Positions 913 through 44,733 of a stretch of DNA of 44,733 bases are shown piece by piece (positions within the stretch are counted from its first letter, which is position 1; each line of letters begins with the position of its first letter). The DNA is from Clostridia bacterium (GTDB lineage Bacteria; Bacillota; Clostridia; UMGS1883; UMGS1540), in the NCBI GenBank assembly GCA_017620205.1, contig JAFZQX010000028.1, forward strand, positions 1-44,733. Reading direction: 5' to 3'. The notes beneath the pieces are model-generated. The model had not been told where the DNA came from. It searched no databases and was given only the letters and a program-made list of their open reading frames with translations. A program made the translations under genes and the position numbers.

Positions 913-1123
913 GCGCCATCAGGGACGCATCTTGCTTCGCAATCTGCACTGCTTGGCGACCGAAAGCCGAGGCTTTCAGCACCCGCCTGCGCACCACTCA
1001 CCTAAAAAACAGTCCCCCGGACTGTTTTTCTTAACGGTTCGTGCCCCCTCGGGGTGCGAGTCCCAGATGGGTAACCGCACGCAAAAAAAACAGCTACCCG
1101 AATCGGGTAGCTGTTTTTTTGGT
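913..1123 (-). repeat. 211-bp multi-hairpin unit bounded by tRNA-Lys 3'-end copies
   Basis: The unit begins with GCGCCATCAGGGAC (913-926), identical to 1124-1137 inside the tRNA 3' arm, so the spacing from copy to copy is 211 bp. Within it lie hairpins at 932-942, 962-977, 1005-1029, 1041-1057 and 1062-1071, then the tRNA terminator. The linker GCTTGGCGACCGAAA at 951-965 and the series of hairpins recur in the 212-bp unit beside tRNA-Ser (44461-44672), with changed but still paired stems. Open frames here are antisense noise over structured DNA. Confidence 0.7.
1082..1119 (-). terminator. Rho-independent terminator of tRNA-Lys
   Basis: A perfect 10-bp stem (1091-1100 with 1104-1113, loop AAT) is flanked by A and T runs on both sides. 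It begins immediately after the encoded CCA of the tRNA on the minus strand and could work in both directions. Confidence 0.85.
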
Positions 1124-44319: not shown

Positions 44320-44410
44320 TGGCGGAGAAAGAGAGATTTGAACTCTCGCGCCGGTTACCCGACCTACTCCCTTAGCAGGGGAGCCCCTTCGGCCTCTTGG
44401 GTATTTCTCC
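44320..44410 (-). tRNA. tRNA-Ser (anticodon GCT)
   Basis: A 91-nt class II tRNA with CCA encoded. The acceptor is GGAGAAA paired with TTTCTCC. The anticodon stem is CTCCC/GGGAG with loop CTGCTAA (anticodon GCT, codons AGC/AGU). A long variable arm (about TAGGTCGGGTAACCGGC) and a T arm with GAGTTCAAATCTC follow. Its 3' end is duplicated at 39666-39680 and, in part, in the repeats to its right. Confidence 0.97.
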
Positions 44411-44432: not shown

Positions 44433-44643
44433 AACCTCAATGCGAGGGATTAATTAAAATTGGCGGAGAAGGTGGGATAAAGCTTTGCTTTGCAAATCTT
44501 TCCTGCTTGGCGACCGAAAACTTCGTTTTCAGTACCCGCCTTCGCACCTGCTCGCTAAAAACAGTTCACCGAACTGTTTTATTTGCGCTCGCAGCCCTCT
44601 CAGGGTTCGAAGCACTTTGAGTGCATTTGCGTAAATATATCAA
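44433..44643 (-). repeat. 212-bp tandem unit with tRNA-Ser 3'-end sequence and five hairpins, copy 1
   Basis: The unit starts AACCTCAATGCGAGGGAT, then carries TGGCGGAGAA (the tRNA-Ser 3' end) at 44461. Hairpins follow at 44484-44496, 44516-44530, 44558-44580, 44593-44607 and 44612-44624. The same order of hairpins, with different but paired bases, is seen next to tRNA-Lys at 932-1071. The distance to the same tRNA-end sequence in copy 2 (44673) is 212 bp. Confidence 0.75.
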
Positions 44644-44733
44644 AACCTCAATGCTGAGGGATTAATTAAAGTTGGCGGAGAAGGTGGGATAAAGCATTGC
44701 TTTGCAAACCTTTCCTGCTCGGTGACCGAAAAC
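44644..44733 (-). repeat. 212-bp tandem unit, copy 2 (cut by window edge)
   Basis: Ninety bases align with 44433-44521 with one single-base indel and a handful of substitutions. They include the tRNA-Ser 3'-end piece at 44673 and the first hairpin (TTGC with GCAA). It continues beyond the window. Confidence 0.8.

Follow-up and report, generated by a model that had tools for sequence, protein, structure and literature searches.

The hairpins of the window (the whole 44,733-nucleotide stretch of Clostridia bacterium DNA that was analysed; contig JAFZQX010000028.1 of assembly GCA_017620205.1) belong to a Clostridia-wide repeat family in which the core is common to the family and both ends are specific to the tRNA; this combination is new here. 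The tRNA-specific ends are the main point of the analysis. Neither they nor RtT, the nearest relative in layout, figured in the sequence-only reading of the window, which had described five successive hairpins at 932–1071, shared with a tRNA-Ser locus, as a structure under selection. The family is interpreted, tentatively and at somewhat less than even probability, as an RtT-like RNA repeat with a tRNA-tracking guide and tail that spreads among tRNA 3′ ends without a gene of its own.

Window elements and covarying core

All features of the two window elements lie on the minus strand. The first element follows its cognate tRNA, tRNA-Lys(ctt) (1120–1195; located with ARAGORN and the Rfam tRNA model), and is separated from it by a terminator hairpin (1083–1119; an inverted repeat and then a T-run). 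It begins with a 5′ antisense arm, the putative guide GGGACTCGCACCC (1052–1064), which was assigned from the sequence and a family-wide rule (see below) and pairs with tRNA-Lys 51–63 with one mismatch. The 3′ part of the arm is overlapped by the structured core (949–1060), which scored 113.7 bits with covariance model R1 and is supported by covariation. A final hairpin (927–948), comprising the TTGC/GCAA region that was the first stem of the sequence-only reading, precedes the tail copy GTCCCTGATGGCGC (913–926; direct repeat D4); this contains the first 14 of the 18 nt of tRNA-Lys 59–76, the ACCA being gone. Next comes a degenerate second unit (785–912; direct repeats D2 and D3), the terminal GTCTGATGGCGCACCA of which (785–800) is another tRNA-Lys tail copy with CCA.

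The second element is part of a tandem array of 212-bp units (direct repeat D1, spacing 212) that lies near the far end of the window and continues past the contig end. Its structured core (44503–44611) scored 116.5 bits with R1, its antisense arm GTGCTTCGAACCC (44603–44615) has diverged and its tail copy ATCCCACCTTCTCCGCCA (44461–44478) is that of a Ser-type tRNA. The preceding array unit (44673–44733), made up of a tail (44673–44690), a hairpin and the linker, is cut at the contig end. The array had been assigned to the tRNA-Ser locus. A search of the assembly found ATCCCACCTTCTCCGCCA on none of its tRNAs, so that tRNA-Ser(gct) (44320–44410; ARAGORN), which lies 3′ of the array and mismatches the tail, is not the cognate; for the same reason the true cognate is presumably located past the end of the contig.

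The stems, the linker and the CTC loop are present where the sequence-only reading placed them. They are structured on the minus, tRNA-sense strand and not on the strand on which they had been read, and the interval 932–1071 is too short: the element measures ∼150 nt from the antisense arm through the tRNA-tail copy. The linker TCGGTCRCCRAGCAG (minus-strand reading) occurs three times in the window versus 0.15 times expected, a count reached in none of 100 shuffles of the window, and the two copies in the window fold better than their dinucleotide-shuffled versions (z of about −2.9 and −2.6).

Read along the tRNA strand, the order of parts in the family is the tRNA with its CCA, a terminator hairpin, the 5′ arm, CCC-TGAG-GGG as a small hairpin, a stem around a hairpin that resembles a terminator (AAAACAGTTC/GAACTGTTTT), after that stem a domain TGC-GAA-GGCG-GGTA-[hairpin]-T-CGCC-GA-GCA, the last hairpin, the copy of the tRNA 3′ end and a second terminator. 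The distance from the CCA to the arm is 39–64 nt (median 50) and that from the arm to the CCA of the tail copy is 146–166 nt. Linkage to tRNA genes holds: the usual placement is behind a tRNA or tmRNA gene and its terminator, and the tRNA is usually the last of its operon.

Model R1 describes the core; in the seed alignment (A2) an assumed CT was prefixed to the contig-start copy C39. The covariation alignment (107 copies, 102 distinct) was fitted to R1 and is therefore biased towards structure; in it 96.7% of the cells are paired and 27 of the 32 pairs differ on both sides. The covariation score was 0.418, compared with 0.153 ± 0.005 in shuffles (0 of 500 reached it), and fell to 0.04–0.08 when the partner was slid by 1–3 columns. 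In a separate comparison of the second stem, an element's own arms gave 4.5 paired bases and swapped arms at most 3.1. The compensatory changes first noticed between the two window loci are thus borne out across 102 distinct sequences, selection on structure holds in this much larger alignment and the covariance-model search of Clostridia genomes returned both covariation and linkage to tRNA genes. Some internal-loop bases of the core are also conserved.

Aligned pairs include 169 G·T cells versus 13 A·C cells, and by this excess the structure was assigned to the tRNA-sense strand. The same excess suggests that the structure is formed as RNA. The original wording, RNA or single-stranded DNA, can accordingly be narrowed as to strand, and the G·T bias is RNA-like.

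Matched ends and distribution

Across 58 distinct element–tRNA combinations, the 5′ arm reads as the reverse complement of positions 51–63 in the cognate tRNA. With the arm offset picked by best fit to the element's own tRNA, the match was 97–100% at positions 51, 52 and 54–63, 76% at position 53 and at chance level (14%) at position 50. The variable position 59 matched in 58 of 58 combinations, and position 57 in 97% as against 49% with the tRNAs permuted. Because this offset had been picked on the own tRNA, a permutation test with re-optimised offsets is fairer; it gave 14.2 of 17 for the own tRNA and at most 12.3 in 10,000 permutations. Arm positions 59–63 can pair with the tail inside the element. 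Positions 54–58 pair with nothing within the element, and the agreement there is therefore not due to the internal fold.

The 3′ tail corresponds to positions 59–76 of the cognate tRNA, with an agreement of 0.98 for the own tRNA versus 0.58 for other tRNAs. Its identity starts at position 59 in most copies, and in 48 of 63 all 18 nt are copied exactly. An unusual tRNA-Thr(cgt) with the T-stem GCG…CGC is accompanied by an equally unusual matching arm (L298), and tmRNAs with three different T-loops have three corresponding arms.

The 2.34-Mb genome of the window contains 15 occurrences of linker TCGGTCRCCRAGCAG (reversed control, 0), one of which, within coding sequence, looks like chance; model R1 finds 14 copies. 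A tRNA scan of this genome placed same-strand copies behind tRNA-Trp, Lys(ctt), Lys(ttt), Ser(gga), Glu(ctc), Glu(ttc) and Arg(acg). Overall, the targets are the Leu, Arg, Lys, Trp, Ser, Pro, Met, Glu, Thr, Gln and Ala tRNAs and tmRNA. Among the genomes sampled, mostly metagenome bins, the element is carried by 59 of 391 at the class level (40 of 223 genera) and by 13 of 28 at the order level, and the named matches are bins of gut Clostridia and Oscillospiraceae. One genus has it in none of eight genomes and another genus of the same family in seven of seven; within one genus, what follows the same tRNA can be intact, arrayed in tandem, reduced to a broken half or built on a different core, and can also be missing. 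Elements at one tRNA across the genomes of a genus have a similarity of 0.86, and those at different tRNAs within one genome 0.82, which indicates that the pattern is partly one of vertical inheritance. Phage and plasmid records contained no element. Four pattern matches in viral contigs were rejected, none being confirmed by the covariance model, and high-GC matches of the pattern scan, likewise unconfirmed by the model, were taken as chance.

No protein family recurs beside the elements, nor does a recombinase or integrase gene recur next to them. The reverse-transcriptase family RVT_1 has no member in the window's genome (100% complete, 14 copies), which speaks against a reverse-transcriptase-driven retroelement there. 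This genome does contain a RAYT-like transposase (L254; G000:C37:1500-6000) flanked by repeats of type AAAAGGGGACGTACACAAATTGTC; a REP/RAYT system was nevertheless rejected, as these repeats are unrelated to the tRNA elements. The analysis saw no element in the act of moving, nor did it yield a clean pair of occupied and empty sites.

Related systems and possible explanations

Rfam gave no match at the elements with curated or permissive thresholds, and the earlier statement that no described family fits stands in this respect. The RtT model (RF00391) gave no match in six genomes including that of the window and none on six loci at a permissive threshold. A literature search found no description of such an element, and the passages retrieved from Weinberg 2010 name no such motif.

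RtT of E. coli tyrT nevertheless resembles the Clostridia element in lying directly behind a tRNA and in having a structured core and tandem units. Its 5′ arm GGGGAAGGAT complements tRNA-Tyr 59–68, whereas the Clostridia arm complements 51–63, and its complementarity to the T-loop positions is interrupted, unlike that of the Clostridia arm. The RtT tail ATCCTTCCCCCACCACCA is an exact copy of tRNA-Tyr 59–76 with CCA; the Clostridia tail also copies 59–76. The cores differ (the Rfam RtT model does not match), RtT has no terminator between itself and the tRNA whereas the Clostridia elements do, and RtT is described at tRNA-Tyr whereas the Clostridia family was seen at about a dozen tRNAs and tmRNA, but not at Tyr. 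Since the layout is common but the core is different, filing the Clostridia elements as RtT is not justified; by analogy of layout, 'works like RtT' would be a justified description.

Other systems share single features. Integrative elements in tRNA genes (attL/attR) likewise carry, at the distal boundary of the insertion, a second copy of the 3′ end of the tRNA, but the Clostridia element is ∼150 nt long, has no integrase and possesses an antisense arm, a conserved fold and ends fitted to many tRNAs. A guide antisense to its target across a junction, and then a copy of the 3′ exon, is found in bacterial tRNA group I introns too, and the Clostridia arm, which spans tRNA 58/59, could be such a guide; however, the Clostridia core is far smaller, the Intron_gpI model does not match at the elements, the T-loop rather than the anticodon loop is addressed and the upstream tRNA is already complete. 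REP/RAYT repeats are also dispersed gene-less hairpin repeats, but lack the tRNA-specific ends, and the layout with a multi-branched core differs from that of integron attC sites.

In the RtT-like reading that we favour, the element would be a non-autonomous repeat that moves among tRNA 3′ ends. The 5′ arm would act as a guide, pairing, either in RNA form or as single-stranded DNA that is exposed, with the target's T-arm, and the tail would preserve the tRNA gene upon insertion and provide a mature-looking CCA end. Core and machinery would be common, guide and tail would be fitted to each target and the mobilising factor would act in trans. This reading is supported by the covarying structure, by the matched arm and tail at about a dozen kinds of tRNA and tmRNA, and by the patchiness, the tandem arrays and the existence of other cores with similar ends. 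It is weakened by the failure to catch movement, by the want of a recurrent neighbouring protein or of RVT_1, by the unrelated RAYT repeats, by the partly vertical pattern and by the empty phage and plasmid records. Transcription is uncertain because a terminator precedes each element.

The main rival, which we regard as possible but rather unlikely, is an RNA that serves the host. After read-through of the terminator and trimming at the CCA of the tail, the arm would pair with the precursor of its own tRNA at the T-arm and thereby control the maturation, quality or level of that tRNA; alternatively, the element would be a small RNA of the kind suggested for RttR in E. coli. The arm stays complementary to T-loop positions 54–58, which are unpaired inside the element, the G·T bias indicates RNA, there is some vertical signal and the annotated RttR RNA stops precisely with the CCA of the tail copy. 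Against such a role, the elements are patchy even at the same tRNA inside a genus, the terminator lies upstream of them and the 18-nt tail copy is left unexplained.

The 3′ ends of tRNA genes and tmRNA are classic integrase targets. The location of the elements at these targets, together with the fixed structured strand and the resemblance of the tail copies to attR-type duplications (the principle is given in PMC9897764), would fit a single-stranded-DNA site for a recombinase, either resembling attC or acting as satellite to a tyrosine integrase with tRNA 3′ ends as its targets, with arm and tail as outer stem and target duplication. This is distinctly unlikely: no recombinase gene recurs beside the elements, one integrase would not account for a dozen targets with matched ends and the G·T tolerance is above that expected for DNA.

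An RNA-guided element, in which the guide pairs with the T-arm and the core transfers the 3′ exon (59–76) onto tRNA 1–58, appears quite improbable, and the same holds for its two conceivable uses, namely self-insertion into any tRNA gene via a retargeted guide or repair of tRNAs that had been cleaved within the T-loop or the acceptor arm. Highly improbable, in our estimate, is a ribozyme or RNA–protein machine that joins the tail to tRNA 1–58 by guide and 3′ exon (cf. group I trans-splicing), so repairing cleaved tRNAs or inserting itself. An arm that spans the 58/59 junction and a tail that starts at 59 fit the anatomy of a guide with an exon, and conserved internal-loop bases are consistent with it; however, the core is just ∼110 nt and the Rfam models of group I and other ribozymes stay below threshold at the elements. 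That tRNA tails and terminators were passively duplicated in tandem and that the structure arose by chance is barely credible: tail and terminator are repeated exactly in some units (L001, L040 and L042), but this idea is largely refuted by the sharp borders of the antisense arm (51–63), the strong covariation and a core common to many families.

Until now RtT was an isolated, puzzling repeat at one tRNA of E. coli. The finding of its guide-plus-tail layout in a class-wide family, with tmRNA and about a dozen tRNAs as targets, makes this a general phenomenon, and the rule (antisense to 51–63, copy of 59–76) is directly testable. What would follow is either retargeting of a mobile element by base pairing, which would be new, or an RNA layer on the biogenesis of tRNA that would be new as well.

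Variant and broken elements

One orphan copy in the window's genome has a tail that matches tRNA-Ala(cgc), which is located on another contig and has unrelated, apparently inserted sequence immediately after its CCA (L300, G000:C32:35174; L301, G000:C37:11302); a later insertion, apparently of an integrated element, that separated this tRNA from its structured element would account for the orphan.

Three broken elements (L189 at a tmRNA of G024; L217/L264 at a tRNA-Leu of G014; L006/L270 at C33:22952) stop in the apical hairpin of the fourth domain and are fused to unrelated sequence, for example an NAD kinase gene or a metallo-β-lactamase-fold gene. No right halves were found within 13–15 kb, and cargo-bearing forms of the element were rejected on this ground. 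In three copies of the window's genome (L034, C16:103122; L035, C43:28535; L036, C41:3279) the apical hairpin is swapped for one common segment of ∼180 nt.

Element L044 (G022:C176) is a chimera that combines a tRNA-Arg arm with a tRNA-Leu(caa) tail and a Leu-type terminator, a combination that either misassembly or recombination between two elements would be expected to give. The window also contains a hairpin AAGCCCTATAAACCGC/GCGGTTTATAAGACTT (738–779), which was assigned to another repeat family because similar sequence lies 3′ of the elements at loci L008 and L014.

Other cores with the same location and the same types of end are found 3′ of tRNA-Pro(tgg) (L224, L225 and L240), at tRNA-Arg (L237 and L238) and at tRNA-Leu (L231). 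The tRNA-Pro elements also contain the anticodon arm (positions 25–36) in both antisense and sense copies, which suggests a second type directed at this arm.
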